Assembly (NCBI GenBank): GCA_016288155.1
Contig: JAEEYP010000036.1
Location: forward strand, 1-64,000
Source: Clostridiales bacterium
GTDB lineage: Bacteria > Bacillota > Clostridia > Oscillospirales > CAG-272
Direction: 5' to 3'
Length of the DNA: 64,000 nucleotides
Shown: positions 36,077 through 44,301 of the stretch, piece by piece
Layout: the number at the start of each line of letters is the position of its first letter
How positions within the stretch are numbered: the first letter of the stretch is position 1
Notes under the pieces: generated by a model
Databases searched by the model: none
What the model saw: only the letters and a program-made list of their open reading frames with translations
What the model was told of the DNA's origin: nothing
Translations under genes and position numbers: made by a program

Positions 36077-37402
36077 TTATTCGCCCGCGATCGCACAGTT
36101 CTCGAACGCCACGCTCGGACAGGCGATCGTGCGGTATTCCCACTCCAGATCGGAGCCGACCGCGACGACCTTCTTCATCAGATCGAGGAAATTCCCCGCG
36201 GCGGTGATCAGCGCCGCGTTCCGGTCCCGTTTCCCGTTCTTCACCAGATAACCGAAGCACTGGAGCGAGAAATCCGTCGTCACGTGATTGAGTCCGGCGT
36301 GCAGCCCGGCGAACCGCGTGACGACGAGCCCGTCGCCCATATCCTCCATCAGTCCGGCGAGATCCCGATCCCCCGGCAGGATGCAGCAGTTCATCGGGCT
36401 GACGGACACCGTGCCCGCGTATCCGTTCTTGAAGCCGTTGCCGGTGGATGCCGTACCCATCCGCGCCGCGGACTTCGTATTGTGGAGCGCCTCCCGGAAG
36501 ACGCCGCGGTCCACGAGGATCTTTTTGCGCGTCGGGCATCCCTCGTCGTCGTAGGCGAAGACGCGGAGCGCATCCGTGTTGCGCGGATCGTCCGCGACCG
36601 TGATCTTGTCGGAGAAGATCGGCTCGCCGAGCTTGTCCTTCAGCGGAGAGATCCCCTTGCCGATCAGATCGCCGGAATACATGTCGGTCAGCGCGCCGAA
36701 AATCGCGGTCATGGCGCGCCGCTCGAAGATCACCGGATAATTCCCGGACGGGATCGGCGTGCCGCCCAGCTCGTCCAGCGCGTCGTCCAGCGCCTTGCGC
36801 GCGATATCCGCCGGATCAAGGCGGGAGAGATCCGGCACGACCTCCACGCGGAAGCCGTCCTTCACCTTTCCGTTCTCTTCGACCGCCACGCTCGCGTACA
36901 AAACCTGCGTCCGGTTCTCGTCCGCCACGCGGACGCCGTTCGTGTTCGTGATCTCGCGCCCGGTGACCGCGTCCTGCCATTCGATCTCCATCACCTGCTT
37001 CACGCGCGGGTCCGACGCGCGCAGGGCGCGCTCCGTCTCCGCCAGCACCGACAGGATCTGATCCGCCGGGGGAACGACCCATTCCGTCGCGCACTTCACG
37101 TCGTCCGCCGCCTCCGGCATGCGGAGCGTGTCCGGCTCCTTTGCCGCGACGATCTCCGCCTGCGCGGCGAGCAGATCGAGCGTCTCGTCGATCTTTGCGT
37201 CGTCGACCGTCTCCAGCGCGAGATTCGCGGTCTTCCCGCCGATGATCGCGCGCAGAGAATATCCCGTGACGTCGCTCGTCACAAAGGAATCCGTCTGCCC
37301 TTCGAACCACGTCACCTTGCGCTCGGCGCTCCGTCCCACGTAGATCTCGAGGCCGTCGAAGCCCCTCTCGCGCGCTCTGTCCAGCCACGCCTGCTTATTC
37401 AT
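36077..37402 (-). CDS. pmbA: TldE/PmbA metalloprotease subunit
   Basis: 441 residues. TldE forms a heterodimer with TldD that trims peptides, for example maturing microcin B17 and degrading CcdA in E. coli. Visible family regions are FEGQTDSFVTSDVTGYSLRAI (beta region, described in part), ANLALETVDDAKIDETLDLL, TASTGNGFKNG and the C-terminal GDGLVVTRFAGLHAGLNHVTTDFSLQ-type block. Like other TldE subunits it lacks the HExxxH zinc motif, which TldD supplies. Its ATG overlaps the stop of a tldD fragment by four bases. The intact tldD lies 543 bases upstream. Confidence 0.92.
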   Translation of the reverse strand: MNKQAWLDRARERGFDGLEIYVGRSAERKVTWFEGQTDSFVTSDVTGYSLRAIIGGKTANLALETVDDAKIDETLDLLAAQAEIVAAKEPDTLRMPEAADDVKCATEWVVPPADQILSVLAETERALRASDPRVKQVMEIEWQDAVTGREITNTNGVRVADENRTQVLYASVAVEENGKVKDGFRVEVVPDLSRLDPADIARKALDDALDELGGTPIPSGNYPVIFERRAMTAIFGALTDMYSGDLIGKGISPLKDKLGEPIFSDKITVADDPRNTDALRVFAYDDEGCPTRKKILVDRGVFREALHNTKSAARMGTASTGNGFKNGYAGTVSVSPMNCCILPGDRDLAGLMEDMGDGLVVTRFAGLHAGLNHVTTDFSLQCFGYLVKNGKRDRNAALITAAGNFLDLMKKVVAVGSDLEWEYRTIACPSVAFENCAIAGE

Positions 37403-37488
37403 TTGCCGTACCCCCCTGCCGTCGTAATGAAAGATACGCGAATGGCAGACCGTCCCACGCCGGTGGGGATGCTGCCGCTCGCCGAGCC
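37399..37488 (-). pseudogene. Remnant of a second tldD 3' end
   Basis: Read on the minus strand from 37488, 29 codons give GSASGSIPTGVG, AIRVS and FITTAGG-type sequence, ending in a TGA that overlaps the pmbA ATG. They match the last residues of intact TldD (GSASGSIPTDVG, AIRVS). By hand alignment the DNA has about 12 mismatches and one 3-base gap over some 92 bases. Upstream of 37488 the similarity stops abruptly. It is a decayed copy of the tldD-pmbA junction, where the stop/start overlap is probably ancestral. Confidence 0.82.
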
Positions 37489-37595
37489 GGTCTATCCCGA
37501 AGTCGATCCCGGATCACTCGTTTTTCCGTATGGTTTTTCCGGCTGTGCCCGCGTCGCCGTTCACTCTTCCTCTTTGACCGGAATACAGACCGGGT

Positions 37596-37891
37596 TCATG
37601 AACAAACACTAACGCCGAACACACATCCGCACACACACTGATAGAGGCGGGTGCTTCCCGTGTCATCCGTTCCGGTAAAGGTAACGGCCCCGTTTTCCTC
37701 ACTGCCGGGGCAACTCGGACATTTCTGGCCTTTGCCCGGGTCCCCCGGATCATAGTCCCAGTCCCTTATGCCGCTGCCACCTGAAGGAGCTTATCATCGT
37801 CGAGCGGCACACCGTTTGCAGTGTCTTTCCCCGTCTCTTCTTTGCCGGAGATCTCCACTCCCCGTATTTTCAGGATCCTGATCGATCTCAT
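37596..37891 (-). pseudogene. Frameshifted small peptide gene, RiPP-leader-like with cysteine-rich tail
   Basis: ATG 37891 behind AGGAG opens 41 codons ending in PLDDDKLLQVAAA and TAA (37768-37766). The next frame, from GGT at 37781 to TGA at 37596-37598, encodes GGSGIRDWDYDPG, CPSC and LYQCVCGCVFG. It has no start of its own, and TGA-TAA lies just upstream in its frame. Adding one more CAGGTGG (present once at the join) restores frame and gives LLQVAGGSG, a double-glycine leader site. The full product would be ~103 residues with six cysteines. The tail also resembles a zinc ribbon. Base composition is more AT-rich than in flanking genes. Function unknown; possible RiPP precursor or TldD/E substrate. 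Confidence 0.55.
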
Positions 37892-37945
37892 TTTGCTTCT
37901 CCTCTTATCAGCCGTACGATACACCCGACCGCGACGAAGCCCCGC

Positions 37946-39340
37946 TTATCCGTTTGCCGTACCCCCCACCGTGATGGAAGAGACGCGGATGGCGGGCTGT
38001 CCCACGTCGGTGGGGATGGAGCCGCTCGCCGAGCCGCACATGCCCTGCCCGCGCGCCAGATTGTCGCTCACTTTATCGATGTTCATGAGGATCTCCGCGC
38101 CGCTGCCGATGAGGGCGGCGCCCTTGACGGGCACGGTGATCTTCCCGTTCTCGATCAGATACCCCTCGAGGACGGAGAAGTTGAATTCTCCCGTCAGCGG
38201 ATTGACGGATCCGCCGCCCATCGACTTCGCGTACAGGCCGCGCTCGATCCCCTCGAAGAGGGACTCGAACGGATCCGTCCCCGCGCAGATGAATGTGTTC
38301 GACATGCGGGAGGTCGGCTCGAATTCATACGACTGGCGGCGGGAGGAGCCGGTCGGTTCCATGCCCATGCGCCGTCCGCCGAGCCGGTCGATCATATACG
38401 ATTTGAGGATGCCGTTCTCGATGAGGACGCGCCGCTTCTGCGGTGTCCCCTCGTCGTCCACGCTTTCGCTCCCCCACGCGCCGGGGATCGTGCCGTCGTC
38501 CACCGCGCTGACGCAGGGAGAAGCGATCCGCTGTCCGAGCTTGCCCGCGAAGACGCTCCGATTCTTCGAGACGGAGGTCGCTTCCAGCGAATGCCCGCAC
38601 GCCTCGTGGAAGATCACGCCGCCGAATCCGTTGTCGATGACGACCGGCATCCGCCCGGACGGGCAGTCCACGGCGGAAAGCATGACCACGGCGGCGCGCG
38701 CCGCCTCCGCGCCGAGCGACTCCGGCGTCTTTTCTTCCCAATATTCGAATCCGCGGCCCGCACCGGAGTTGCAGCTCCCGCTCTGGAAATTCCCGTTCTC
38801 GGCGGCGTAGGCGACGACGGACAGCCGGGTGCGGACGCGCACGTCCTCCGCCAGCCGCCCTTCCGTATTGGCGATCTGCACGCGCTGGCGCACGTTGAGC
38901 AGGGTCGCCTGCGTCTTGACGATGCGCGGATCGTATGCCTTTGCCGCGCGCTCGGCGCGCCGTGCGAGCTCCGTCCGCGCGGCAAGAGAGACCGCGTCGA
39001 AATCGATGCGCGCCGGATCGCCGTTCGCGGACGCCGTCCCGGTCAGCGCCGCGTCGGACGGAGTCTTGCCTTCCGTCCCGCCGAGCGCCCTCGTCAGATC
39101 GGTGATGATCGGCAGAAGATGCGCGTCGTCCGCGCCGTTCGAGTAGCCGTAGACGGTCTGCACGCCCTTGAAGAGGCGGATGCCGACGCCGGATTTGACG
39201 GTGCGGTTCACCCGATCGACCTCTTCGTTCAGGGACGCGATCGTCTCAGAGGTCTCTTCTTCCTCGTAAATCTCCGCGAGGTCCGCCTCCGACGCCATGC
39301 AGAGACCCAGATACCGCGCGAGTTCTTCTTTCTTCAGCAT
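37946..39340 (-). CDS. tldD: TldD metalloprotease catalytic subunit
   Basis: 464 residues from ATG 39340 (MLKKEELARYL), behind GGGGAG; longer upstream reading enters the DUF4340 gene in another frame. The zinc motif HEACGH is at residues 245-250 in GGVIFHEACGHSLEA. With TldE it should form the active protease, whose tunnel accepts unfolded peptides. It lies 29 bases after the DUF4340 gene, last in line behind a Gld-type ABC exporter. Downstream comes the peptide cassette, not pmbA. After its TAA, ACGGATAAGCGGG resembles the pmbA start ATGAATAAGCAGG, as if the original pmbA start had been left behind. Confidence 0.92.
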   Translation of the reverse strand: MLKKEELARYLGLCMASEADLAEIYEEEETSETIASLNEEVDRVNRTVKSGVGIRLFKGVQTVYGYSNGADDAHLLPIITDLTRALGGTEGKTPSDAALTGTASANGDPARIDFDAVSLAARTELARRAERAAKAYDPRIVKTQATLLNVRQRVQIANTEGRLAEDVRVRTRLSVVAYAAENGNFQSGSCNSGAGRGFEYWEEKTPESLGAEAARAAVVMLSAVDCPSGRMPVVIDNGFGGVIFHEACGHSLEATSVSKNRSVFAGKLGQRIASPCVSAVDDGTIPGAWGSESVDDEGTPQKRRVLIENGILKSYMIDRLGGRRMGMEPTGSSRRQSYEFEPTSRMSNTFICAGTDPFESLFEGIERGLYAKSMGGGSVNPLTGEFNFSVLEGYLIENGKITVPVKGAALIGSGAEILMNIDKVSDNLARGQGMCGSASGSIPTDVGQPAIRVSSITVGGTANG

Positions 39341-39369: not shown

Positions 39370-40887
39370 TCAATTCTTGCCGTAGGAATCGACGTCGAGA
39401 TCGTTCAGAACACGGCTCGCGTCCGACGCGATCTTCTCGATCAGATCGGTCTGCACGTAGAATTCCCCGCTGCCGTTGATCGTCATCAGGCTGCGCCGTC
39501 CGGTGCTCGAATAGGGATAGAACTTGTAGACCGTCTCGTCGCCGGAGAGGTTCTTGAAGGAAAACGTCAGGATGCAGTTGCTCTCGTCGGCGGTCAGCGC
39601 CGCGATCTCCTCCTCCGTCAGCGGGACGTAGTCGTAGATCTCGATGGACAACAGCGTCTTGTAGAGCTGGCGGAAATTGTACACCTCCGCGTTCGGGATC
39701 TCCTTGCCCGTGCTCGCCGAGACGTCCAGCGTCGCGTTTTCGTTCTCGTCGGTGCCGTGGTGGAGCGTGAAGGTCACGTCGGCGCCGGAGCCGCGGATCG
39801 TCATGGAGGAAACGGAGGTGATCCACTGCTGGAACGGATACTCGGCGATCCAGTCGATCAGCCCGTATTCAAGGTACTTGACGGAGGAGCGGTCGATCGT
39901 GATGATCTCATACGGGAAGAGATTGGACACGACGTAGTAGAAGTCCCCCGGCTGCAGTTCGCTGAACAGGAGCATGAAACGGACGCCGTTGTAGTCGAAG
40001 AGGATCGTGTGCGCCGGCTCGAGAAGCCCGTACTTCTCGTAATCCGCCTCCTCCGCGCCGAGCTTGACGACGGAGGTACCGGTCAGCGCCATGTAATCGT
40101 AAAGGATGTTCAGATACACGTCCGAGTTCGGGTAGTAGCTCGTCGGATACTGCATGATGTTCTCGACGAGCGCGTTCGGATTGTTCTGATCCTCCGGATC
40201 GACGATGGTGATCGAGCAGAGGACCTCGTCGCCGTGGATCACGGTGAAGTTGTCGATCAGGAAATAGTCGTTGCGGTCGATCCCCGCGAGCAGCACCGGC
40301 GTCAGGAGCGCCTCGATCGGCGCGAGGATCGTGTCCTCCAGCACCGTGTCGAGGACGTACACGGAGCGGCGTCCTTCGAGCATGCAGTAATAGCCGCCGC
40401 CCGTCAGAAGATCGTATCCGACGTCCACGGTATATTTTTCGCCCGTGATCGTCGTCAGCGTCCACTTCGCCTTCGGATGGTCGAGCCCGTACTCCTCCAG
40501 CTCCGCGTCCGTCGCGTTGTCCACGACCTTGACCTTCGAGAGCGTATAGCCCGTGCTCGTCACGAGATTGGAGAAGAGCGTCAGATCGTACGCCGTCCCC
40601 TCGAAGTCCCGGATCTGGAAGTCGCCGTTCGCGTCGCGGTAGAACTCATACGAGCCGTATTCGTTCTCGACGGCGATCGACTGCATCCCCTTCCGCTCGA
40701 TCTGCGGATACATCATATAGCGGTCGTTGATACCGACCACCTCGCCCGCGACCGTCTCGAGCGGCTCCGTCTCCGGAGCCTCCTCCACGGCGTTCACGAT
40801 CGGACGGATCACGGCGAAATACAGGATGAGAAGGACGACGAACACGCCGCCGAGGATCAGCGCCGTTTTTTTCAGCCGCGCGTTCAT
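39370..40887 (-). CDS. DUF4340 membrane-anchored protein
   Basis: 505 residues with one N-terminal membrane segment (~7-27) and an extracytoplasmic region. Repeated YGLDHPKAKWTLTT-type and DLTLFSNLVTS-type stretches fit DUF4340, which usually accompanies GldG-like proteins and ABC-2 exporters. Its start overlaps the GldG-like stop by four bases (40884-40887), so the two are coupled. It may form the outer part of the transporter complex; no enzymatic motif is visible. No function is established for the family as far as I know. Confidence 0.8.
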   Translation of the reverse strand: MNARLKKTALILGGVFVVLLILYFAVIRPIVNAVEEAPETEPLETVAGEVVGINDRYMMYPQIERKGMQSIAVENEYGSYEFYRDANGDFQIRDFEGTAYDLTLFSNLVTSTGYTLSKVKVVDNATDAELEEYGLDHPKAKWTLTTITGEKYTVDVGYDLLTGGGYYCMLEGRRSVYVLDTVLEDTILAPIEALLTPVLLAGIDRNDYFLIDNFTVIHGDEVLCSITIVDPEDQNNPNALVENIMQYPTSYYPNSDVYLNILYDYMALTGTSVVKLGAEEADYEKYGLLEPAHTILFDYNGVRFMLLFSELQPGDFYYVVSNLFPYEIITIDRSSVKYLEYGLIDWIAEYPFQQWITSVSSMTIRGSGADVTFTLHHGTDENENATLDVSASTGKEIPNAEVYNFRQLYKTLLSIEIYDYVPLTEEEIAALTADESNCILTFSFKNLSGDETVYKFYPYSSTGRRSLMTINGSGEFYVQTDLIEKIASDASRVLNDLDVDSYGKN

Positions 40888-42377
40888 GAGTTCTTTCTCC
40901 TTACCCAGATCACAAGACCGACGGCGGCGGACAAAAGCGGCAGCACCGTCACGATGGCGACGGACCAGTGATTGGACTGCGCGGTCGTGATGTCCAGCTT
41001 CGTCTTGTCAAAGACCTTGAAATCGATATCGGCGAGGATCTTGTCCCGGCCGGTCGCCCGCATGGCGGCAGAGAGGATATCGCTGTTCGCGTAAGCGTTG
41101 GACAGAAGGTAATTGCTGTTGGCGAAATTCGAGGAACCGCTGACGATGACGTAGGAGTAATAATACTCGTTGTTGATGATCCGCGTCTCGCACGAGAGCG
41201 TCATGAGATTGAAGGAGCCGCGGTCGACCGTTTCGTTGTTGCGCATCGCGCGGGAGGTATCGTAAGAGGTGATGACCGGCGACACGGAGCGTGAGCCGGA
41301 AAGATTGCCGCCCTCCTCCCAGAGGATCTCGATCGGCATCGTGTAGCGGGAGATCGTCTTCGGGAGCGTGGAGAGGTTATCCGTCAGATCCTTGTAGATG
41401 GAGCTGCCGAGCGTGTCCGCGTCGTACTGCGCGACCACGGAGAGCCCGTCCGTCGAGATGGAGTGCTCCGCGTCCACGATGTACGTGTCCGGCGTGAAGG
41501 CGACGCCCCACTCCTCGAGGAATTCGCTCAGATTCGTCAGACGCGCGGCGTGATCCGGATCGGCGAAGACGTACAGACAGCCGAAGTTGTCGAGGAAGCG
41601 GTCGAGCTTGGCGATCTCGTTCGCGCCCGCGTCGTCCGCCTCCGCTCCGATGAAGTCGTAGACGGGATCGTTTATAATGATGATGCGCGCGTCCTCGTCG
41701 ATCTCTTCCGCCGCCAGATTGATGACGCGCACCTCGAAGCCGTTGTCCGCGAAGAGCGTGGCGAGCGCGCCGGCGCCTTCGCCGAGATTCTCACCGTGCT
41801 CGCTCGTGAAGTACACGATGGGAAGCTCCGCGCTCGTGACCTGGAGGATGCCGGAGATCATCTTCTTCTCGCCCTGATACGCCCAGATCGTGCCGTCCTC
41901 GTTCTGTACGAAGAACGCCTGGAGCGCGAACACGCGGATCTCCGTCCCGGATTCGACGATGACGGAGGTCGTGTAGATGTTCGTCGCGCTCGTCGAGCGG
42001 AAGCGCTCGAAGAACGCGCGGTGCTTGACGATGTCCTTGCAGGTGACGTGGATGTTCGGGAACGCCGCCTCCAGCTGCATGGCGGTGTTGTAGACGTACT
42101 TTGCCCAGGTCCCGTTCGTGCCGTTCATCAGCGCGTCCGGCTCGCTGCAGAAGTAGATGTTCACCTCGTCGTCGATGTCGGAGAGGATCTCCTTCGCGGC
42201 GTCGGAAAGCGTGAAGACGGATTCCTTCGTCATGTCGATGTACCACAGGTACTTCGTCGCCAGCGCGGTGAAGATGATGTTGAAGATGATCACGACCGCG
42301 ATGAACGCGCAGGTGAAGGCGCCGGCCGCCGTGCCGTAGCGGAAACGCTTGGAGGAATAAAAGCTGTTTTTACTCAT
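40884..42377 (-). CDS. GldG-like ABC transporter auxiliary protein
   Basis: 497 residues. A hydrophobic segment near residues 18-42 and another close to the C-terminus (~472-492) flank a large external domain. MTKESVFTLSDAAKEIL and VNIYFCSEPD are typical of GldG / ABC_transp_aux proteins, first known from Flavobacterium gliding but widespread with ABC-2 exporters in Clostridia. It lies between permease and DUF4340 in a four-gene transporter operon (ATPase, permease, GldG-like, DUF4340). Cargo is unknown. Confidence 0.85.
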   Translation of the reverse strand: MSKNSFYSSKRFRYGTAAGAFTCAFIAVVIIFNIIFTALATKYLWYIDMTKESVFTLSDAAKEILSDIDDEVNIYFCSEPDALMNGTNGTWAKYVYNTAMQLEAAFPNIHVTCKDIVKHRAFFERFRSTSATNIYTTSVIVESGTEIRVFALQAFFVQNEDGTIWAYQGEKKMISGILQVTSAELPIVYFTSEHGENLGEGAGALATLFADNGFEVRVINLAAEEIDEDARIIIINDPVYDFIGAEADDAGANEIAKLDRFLDNFGCLYVFADPDHAARLTNLSEFLEEWGVAFTPDTYIVDAEHSISTDGLSVVAQYDADTLGSSIYKDLTDNLSTLPKTISRYTMPIEILWEEGGNLSGSRSVSPVITSYDTSRAMRNNETVDRGSFNLMTLSCETRIINNEYYYSYVIVSGSSNFANSNYLLSNAYANSDILSAAMRATGRDKILADIDFKVFDKTKLDITTAQSNHWSVAIVTVLPLLSAAVGLVIWVRRKNS

Positions 42378-42400
42378 CGCTCATTCTCCTTTCCGCGCTC

Positions 42401-43105
42401 TCACGACCAGCGTCTTTTCTCAAAGACGCGGACGGAAAGGAACAAGAACACGGCGCACACGGACACGTAGTATACGATCGCGCCGAAATCGAAGATGCCG
42501 TAGGTGAAGTTCGCATACCGGCTGTAGATGGAGATCCAGTTGAGCACGGAGCGGACGACGTAGGAATCGATCAGGCTGTTGACCATCGCCACGATGACGA
42601 GCGCGAGCAGGATCCCGATCGTGCCGAGCGCGGCGGTGAACTGATTCTCCGTCAGGCTGGACACGAAGATCCCGATGGCAATGAAGGTCATGCCGATGAG
42701 GAGCATCGCGATAAGCGACCCCCACACGCGCGCCCAGTTGACCTCGCCGTAGAGCGAGAGCGGATAGAAATACAGGCAGGAGAGGAGCAGGGTCGTTACG
42801 AACATCGTCAGAGCGGCGAGGAATTTCGCAAGGACGATGCCGGTCAGCGACACGGGCGCGGTCAGGAGCACCTGTTCCGTGCGCGTGCGGCGTTCCTCCG
42901 CGAACGTCTTCATCGTGAGGAGCGGGATCACGATGATATAGGCAAACATCAGGAACTGAAAGTATCCCGACACGTCCGTCGTCTGCGACTGGAGCGTCGA
43001 CAGCGAGAACAGGAAGCCGGAGGCGGCGAGGAACACCGCCATGAACACGTAGCCGATCGGCGTGGTGAAATAGGAATACACTTCCCGTTTATAAATGGCG
43101 AACAT
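42401..43105 (-). CDS. ABC-2 type transporter permease (GldF-like)
   Basis: 234 residues with about six membrane segments. AIYKREVYSYFTTPIGYVFMA at the N-terminus, PLLTMKTFAEERRTRTEQVLLTAPVS in the first cytosolic loop (given in part) and VLAKFLAAL are classic for ABC-2/GldF permeases. It starts 23 bases after the ATPase gene stop and ends 23 bases before the GldG-like gene. With a single ATPase and permease, the exporter would be a dimer of each. Confidence 0.9.
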   Translation of the reverse strand: MFAIYKREVYSYFTTPIGYVFMAVFLAASGFLFSLSTLQSQTTDVSGYFQFLMFAYIIVIPLLTMKTFAEERRTRTEQVLLTAPVSLTGIVLAKFLAALTMFVTTLLLSCLYFYPLSLYGEVNWARVWGSLIAMLLIGMTFIAIGIFVSSLTENQFTAALGTIGILLALVIVAMVNSLIDSYVVRSVLNWISIYSRYANFTYGIFDFGAIVYYVSVCAVFLFLSVRVFEKRRWS

Positions 43106-43128
43106 CGTATGTCATCCTTTCGTATCGC

Positions 43129-44109
43129 TCAGCGTCCCGCCCGGGCGGCTTTCGCGTCCCCGGGGCGCTTTTTATTCGCATCGGCGTCCATCAGTTTGAT
43201 GAACACGTCCTCCAGCGACATGCCGACCGCCTCGAGTCCGAGGATCGGCCAGCCGCGCTCGGAAAGCGCAAAGAAGAGCGGCTTGCGGATATCGACGCCC
43301 TGCTCGCTCTGGATGTGATACGTAAAGCTGTCGAGTTCTCTCTCCCCGACGGCGTCCGCGCGGACGACGCCCGGGATCTTCGAGAGCGCGGCGAGCACCT
43401 CGCGCTGCGGACCGCAGATCTTGACGCTGTACAGCCGATCCTCCTCGACGACGCGGTTGAGGTTTTCCGTCTTCTCGTCGGCGATGATCCGCCCCTGGTT
43501 GATGACGACGATCCGGTCGGCGACGGCCTGTACCTCCGGCAGGATATGGGAGGAGAGGATGACCGTGTGATCGGCGCCGAGATTCCGGACCAGATTGCGG
43601 ATCTCGATGATCTGCTTCGGGTCGAGGCCGACGGTCGGCTCGTCGAAGACGAGCACGGGCGGGTTGCCGATCAGCGACTGCGCGATGCCGACGCGCTGGC
43701 GGTATCCCTTGGAAAGATTCTTGATCATGCGCCCGCGCACGTCGGAGATCTTCGTGACCTCGCACACCTCTTTCAGATGCTTCTCCCGATTCAGCGTGCA
43801 GCGCTTCAGTTCATAGATGAAGCCGAGATACTCGTCCACCTTCATGTCCACGTACAAGGGCGGCTGCTCCGGCAGAAAGCCGATCAGACGCTTCGCCTCG
43901 TAGGGACTGTCCAGAACGTCGATCCCGCTCACGCGGACGGTGCCGGACGTGGAGGAAAGATACCCGGTCAGGATGTTCAAGGTCGTGCTCTTCCCGGCTC
44001 CGTTCGGACCGAGGAATCCGACGATCTCGCCGCGGTTGACGCGGAAGCTGATGTCGTCCACGGCGAACTTCGAGCCGTACCGTTTTACCAGATGCTCGAT
44101 TTCAATCAT
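43129..44109 (-). CDS. ABC transporter ATP-binding protein (GldA-like)
   Basis: 326 residues from ATG 44109 (MIEIEHLVKRYG); sequence upstream in frame is not conserved. Walker A GPNGAGKST is at 34-42, the signature LSKGYRQRVGIAQSLIGN and Walker B VLVFDEPTVGLDP follow near 135-165, and a C-terminal domain of ~100 residues is present as in GldA/NatA-like proteins. It is first in the operon ATPase-permease-GldG-DUF4340-tldD-cassette-pmbA. A -10-like TATACT lies at 44203-44198 without a convincing -35; the rest of the 250-base gap holds the terminator of the upstream gene. Confidence 0.92.
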   Translation of the reverse strand: MIEIEHLVKRYGSKFAVDDISFRVNRGEIVGFLGPNGAGKSTTLNILTGYLSSTSGTVRVSGIDVLDSPYEAKRLIGFLPEQPPLYVDMKVDEYLGFIYELKRCTLNREKHLKEVCEVTKISDVRGRMIKNLSKGYRQRVGIAQSLIGNPPVLVFDEPTVGLDPKQIIEIRNLVRNLGADHTVILSSHILPEVQAVADRIVVINQGRIIADEKTENLNRVVEEDRLYSVKICGPQREVLAALSKIPGVVRADAVGERELDSFTYHIQSEQGVDIRKPLFFALSERGWPILGLEAVGMSLEDVFIKLMDADANKKRPGDAKAARAGR

Positions 44110-44301
44110 AGCCTGCCACCTCACGATTTGATGCGGCGCCCGCGGAGATCCCGACACGGGACCGCCATCCGGCGCGCGCAGTTGGGTAAACATAATAAGT
44201 ATAGCACAGATTTATAAATAAATCTTGAACAATCCGCGCTTTCTCGTCCCGCTGCGCGATTTTCTGCGCCGCCCGGACCAAAAACGGCGGGAGAGCAAAA
44301 G

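Follow-up and report, generated by a model that had tools for sequence, protein, structure and literature searches.

In the Clostridiales genome examined here, an insert separates tldD from tldE (pmbA). We judge, with a probability of roughly 0.6, that this insert carries a frameshifted gene for a double-glycine (GG) leader peptide with a zinc-ribbon-like core, an orphan that entered the junction by a lineage-specific event. The window, that is, the whole stretch of DNA analysed, covers 64,000 nt of contig JAEEYP010000036.1, and the features that bear on this reading are collected in Table 1. The GC content of the insert is ~55% vs ~65% in the flanking tldD and tldE. The tldD product matches Pfam PmbA_TldD domains 1-3 (1.6e-70) and, under the model's cut-off, NCBIfam TldD PRK10735 (1.4e-100); tldE was assigned by Pfam and NCBIfam searches. 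A promoter scan of the locus found none, a terminator scan gave one terminator-like site on the opposite strand, about the number expected by chance, and an Rfam search of the locus gave no match.

Table 1. Features of the tldD-tldE region of the window, and one peptide gene of a related genome
Feature	Position	Strand	Description
GldA-like ATPase, GldF-like permease, ABC_transp_aux protein, DUF4340 protein	39370..44193	-	
tldD	37946..39340	-	Intact, 464 aa; copy 1 of the duplicated segment makes up its final ~100 bp
Junction copy 1 (tldD-tail/tldE-start)	37941..38036	-	Working tldD end; former tldE ATG now ACG
Insert	37500..37940	-	About 440-450 bp
Ribosome-binding site	37899..37903	-	AGGAG, 7 nt upstream of the ATG at 37891
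Leader-like ORF	37766..37891	-	41 aa, ends PLDDDKLLQVAAA and stop
Join of the two frames	37776..37784	-	Frame lost where GG would come after LLQV; single CAGGTGG
Cys-rich frame	37596..37784	-	No start; GGSG...CPSC...CVCGCVF..., zinc-ribbon-like
Junction copy 2 (tldD-tail/tldE-start)	37390..37489	-	Decayed, with indels; tldE ribosome-binding site and ATG kept
tldE/pmbA	36077..37402	-	Intact, 441 aa
GG-leader Cys-pair peptide, related genome G389, contig C86	L277, G389:C86:6500-7900		

The insert is bounded by two copies of the tldD-tail/tldE-start segment, 82-89% identical with gaps, and copy 2 is frameshifted as tldD. The junction alignment contains 4 states that are common to both copies and absent from the outgroups, together with 12 private changes in copy 2 and 6 in copy 1. 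The shared states and the excess of private changes in copy 2 suggest, as the simplest history, that within this lineage the segment was duplicated and the insert gained, and that copy 2 then decayed. No terminal inverted repeats were seen bounding the insert, and there was no recombinase among its ORFs. When the insert DNA was searched in 192 genomes, no relatives were found: apart from the junction repeat, the matches were short and attributable to chance; those in rsmH (L068) and in a gene of the same genome (L076) were inspected and judged to be chance. The initial annotation of this region had missed the duplicated tldD-tail/tldE-start around the insert.

The junction is empty in relatives. 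The usual tldD-tldE gap there ranges from -8 to about 30 nt, that is, overlap or near touch, compared with 543 nt in the window, and it is at most 103 nt in 120 of 124 relatives. A comparable GG/Cys peptide gene was present at none of the 124 junctions. The four loci with long gaps (L048, L178, L205, and L209) were examined and have no GG/Cys peptide; the gap at L048 looks like a misassignment. The nearest genus by tldD is g42, whose tldD is 89-93% identical to that of the window over the last 150 residues. In six g42 genomes (seven loci with L150), the tldE ATG overlaps the tldD stop by 8 nt and the insert is absent; the rumen genome RUG10688 likewise has its tldE start 8 nt ahead of the tldD stop. 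The insertion of ~450 bp is best read from these alignments as lineage-specific, seen in this genome alone among those compared.

Translation from the ATG at 37891 gives the 41-aa leader-like product MRSIRILKIRGVEISGKEETGKDTANGVPLDDDKLLQVAAA, and we confirmed the coordinates and frames that the initial annotation had given for this ORF and its AGGAG site. The motif PLDDDKLLQV, which it had placed at the very end of the 41 codons, is present but lies further in, with LLQV at codons 35-38, followed by AAA and the stop. The cysteine-rich continuation with CPSC and CVCGC was found as described, in another frame and with no start upstream; its translation, SGGSGIRDWDYDPGDPGKGQKCPSCPGSEENGAVTFTGTDDTGSTRLYQCVCGCVFGVSVCS, has six Cys and a GG at the beginning, which falls at the join. 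As sequenced, the leader ORF ends in VAAA without a GG, and a GG-leader pattern appears only if the two frames are joined. The GG would then stand in register behind the hydrophobic residues L(-12), L(-7), and V(-4), with a short acidic stretch ahead of it. The earlier description as a RiPP-leader-like precursor is supported as to anatomy, which would be that of a GG leader broken at the join and has intact analogues in related genomes, but that leader and core were once one protein is what we infer. The loss of one CAGGTGG, which had been offered as the cause of the shift, is compatible with the single copy of this 7-nt unit at the join, but other indels of the same phase would fit equally well.

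It is also conceivable, though we think it unlikely, that living cells carry an unbroken peptide gene and that the frameshift arose as an error of metagenome assembly or strain mixture at a short CAGGTGG tandem repeat. The genome was assembled as 116 contigs, and the Cys frame runs for 59 codons without a stop, Cys pairs included, whereas copy 2 next to it has accumulated its private changes and several indels. Short reads, however, normally resolve a 7-nt tandem repeat, and searches turned up neither a second copy nor a second assembly. We infer that the frameshift is genuine. The open Cys frame beside the decayed copy 2 suggests that the peptide ORF was under selection until recently.

We simulated 20,000 inserts with the dinucleotide make-up of the real one. 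Of these, 5.7% contained an SD together with an ORF of 35 aa or longer, 0.17% the Cys pattern, and none the GG-leader-like motif, and a scan of 2.42 Mb (both strands, partly redundant) found the leader-like ORF end at this site only; all these figures overstate the surprise, because the motifs were defined after the site had been seen. The GC content of the leader frame by codon position, 0.61/0.39/0.63, is coding-like. In the Cys core frame, no coding GC3 signature was seen. The lack of a codon signature in the core, the lack of any sequence homologue, and the negative profile test of the core described below would all suit a chance origin, in which an insert that codes for nothing happens to contain a short ORF and a Cys-rich frame that look like a GG-leader peptide. 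Such an accident is nevertheless quite improbable in our estimate, given the simulation, the unique site, the codon composition of the leader frame, and the fact that the SD, the leader motif, the GG, and the two Cys pairs stand in the correct order and spacing.

The resemblance of the Cys core to zinc ribbons lies under the usual thresholds. Against the Pfam TFIIS ribbon (PF01096) it scored 10.7 bits (E 0.51) vs a cut-off of 21, and a PDB search gave four matches with E 0.1-1.1, all of them zinc ribbons of RNA polymerase (RPB9/RPA12). It departs from a TFIIS-type zinc ribbon in its second pair, CVC/CGC, as well as in the profile score. A structure model of the core consisted of low-confidence beta strands (pLDDT 57), too poor for a fold search. 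Neither leader nor core matched over the cut-off in Pfam, NCBIfam, or PHROGs, nor did the core in PDB, and the leader had no NCBIfam match at E 10, TIGR03798 and TIGR03793 included. Sequence homologues of the leader and core were not found in this and related genomes, nor were those of the core in phages and plasmids (tblastn), in viral contigs, or in a genome collection of 84,980 species. Weak matches of the core in related genomes were read out and proved to be chance or unrelated zinc ribbons.

A C39-peptidase ABC exporter, as expected for GG-leader precursors, is encoded in the same genome. Contig C82 (L116, G000:C82:12000-31999) carries a complete NHLM-type cassette with a TIGR03796 exporter (942 bits, cut-off 853; Pfam Peptidase_C39, 1.4e-33), a TIGR03797 transporter (729 bits, cut-off 709), a radical SAM/SPASM protein, and three tandem precursors of the form ...LPDE.L..VAGG, which end in LPDELLESVAGG, LPDEILDAVAGG, and LPDEMLDTVAGG. 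The core of one of these precursors is made of repeated GIGDNST/GIGENST units. The C39 peptidases of PCAT exporters recognise GG (or GA/GS) with hydrophobic residues at -4, -7, and -12 (PMC10885120). If joined to the core, the leader of the window would share these three hydrophobic positions, the GG, and the acidic stretch with PCAT or NHLP-Nif11 precursors (TIGR03793/TIGR03796/TIGR03797/TIGR03798; Haft 2010, PMC2887384), and a cassette of that type is present in the same genome. On the other hand, the leader is not as long as the Nif11-type leaders of the C82 cassette and does not resemble them, and the window gene is an orphan in an unrelated operon, with its frame broken at the join.

The tldD of the window and the NHLM exporter are both common to genus g42. 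TIGR03796 was over the cut-off in 6/6 g42 genomes, but in 0/4 of those searched from the genus to which the window belongs; where tldD was looked for in that genus, there was either a distant paralogue or no tldD at all. Either horizontal transfer or binning may have contributed to this sharing with g42 rather than with the window's own genus.

The position of the peptide gene beside tldD and tldE had led the initial annotation to suggest an undescribed, tldD/pmbA-linked peptide family whose members are substrates of TldD/E. The precedent is microcin B17, whose leader is trimmed by TldD/E (PMC5810440) and whose precursor, McbA, is likewise encoded by a small leader-core peptide gene in a genome with TldD/E. 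The McbA leader, however, does not belong to the GG/C39 type. TldD/E acts on modified, not on unmodified, McbA, and the RiPP substrates of TldD/E are usually encoded elsewhere in the genome (PMC5810440, PMC10885120), whereas the window peptide gene adjoins tldD and tldE. No heterocyclisation genes were recognised near the window peptide gene, and the operon genes examined included no recognisable azole or other modifying enzymes. A family of this kind is also at odds with the 124 tldD-tldE junctions, where no homologue near tldD/pmbA was found, an outcome that the initial annotation itself had named as refuting the idea. The ABC exporter that had been reported in the operon is instead a GldA/GldF-like module with ABC_transp_aux and DUF4340 proteins, not a C39-type peptide exporter; the C39 exporter is on the other contig. 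It is C39 peptidases that read GG leaders, and since the genome has a separate machine dedicated to the export and cleavage of GG-leader peptides, nothing ties the peptide to TldD/E. We therefore consider processing by TldD/E very improbable, and the adjacency is best read as the accident of one insertion.

Intact GG-leader peptides with Cys-pair (CxxC...CxxC) cores were found in related genomes, all of them away from tldD, on contigs G122 C32, G181 C117, G652 C10, G102 C46, G389 C63, and G389 C86; G102 and G389 belong to genus g42. In detail, G102 C46 (L268, G102:C46:65800-70000) carries three such peptides in tandem, the peptide on G389 C63 (L294) adjoins NHLM exporter genes, and the tandem peptides on G122 C32 (L118, G122:C32:2000-19559) lie next to genes that look like an NHLM-type cassette. 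Four of the five relatives' cores that were scanned matched zinc-ribbon models under the cut-off, and the fifth gave no match. Short GG-leader peptides with tiny acidic, Cys-less cores also occur scattered singly in genus g42, for example at L269 (G102:C49) and L272 (G102:C126), with the sequences GLLDNVPPVDEKPYDPDDKNRY and EDPFEDIPRIEPEPIDEELRKDG.

In the window as in these relatives, the GG is followed by CPxC and then by another Cys pair, preceded by an aromatic residue, and RDW shortly after the GG is common to the window and some of the relatives' peptides. The relatives, however, have CxxC as the second pair where the window has CVC, and their leaders are longer. The cores are alike in architecture, without significant sequence similarity. 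A profile of nine relatives' cores, built with the window excluded, placed the window core at rank 12 of the 1,243 window frames, with 4.8 bits; in pairwise comparison with the relatives, its scores stayed within the range of shuffles (best 2.6%). Independent HMMs of core and leader were negative against all window frames, and we therefore do not claim homology of the window core to those of the relatives. Another profile (A1) contained the window sequence; its match to the window holds by construction and was not used as evidence.

In the reading that we prefer, an insertion into the tldD-tldE junction would have brought in a small gene for a peptide with a double-glycine leader and a Cys-rich, zinc-ribbon-like core. 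The event would have duplicated about 100 bp of the junction, so that the end of tldD was preserved and tldE retained both its ribosome-binding site and its start. A frameshift would then split the peptide gene precisely at the leader/core join, leaving the 41-aa leader fragment as the only possible product. The intact peptide would presumably have left the cell through a C39-peptidase ABC exporter of the PCAT/NHLM type, encoded elsewhere in the genome, with cleavage after the GG by that exporter and not by TldD/E. Of the elements of this reading, the insertion, its duplicated flanks, the two frames, the lack of an insert at the junction in relatives, and the exporter cassette were directly observed.

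The locus itself, one broken orphan gene in one genome, is of little importance, and serves as a caution against inferring what a gene does from its place beside tldD/tldE. In the relatives, the intact GG-leader peptides with cores that resemble zinc ribbons, some of them beside an NHLM exporter, are an unusual cargo; in the literature searched, no report joins 'zinc ribbon' with 'Nif11' or describes such cargo. As a tentative proposal, which we hold to be possible rather than probable, these peptides may form an undescribed class of NHLM/PCAT cargo among the gut and rumen Clostridia of this order, of which the window gene would be a horizontally spread, recently broken orphan member.
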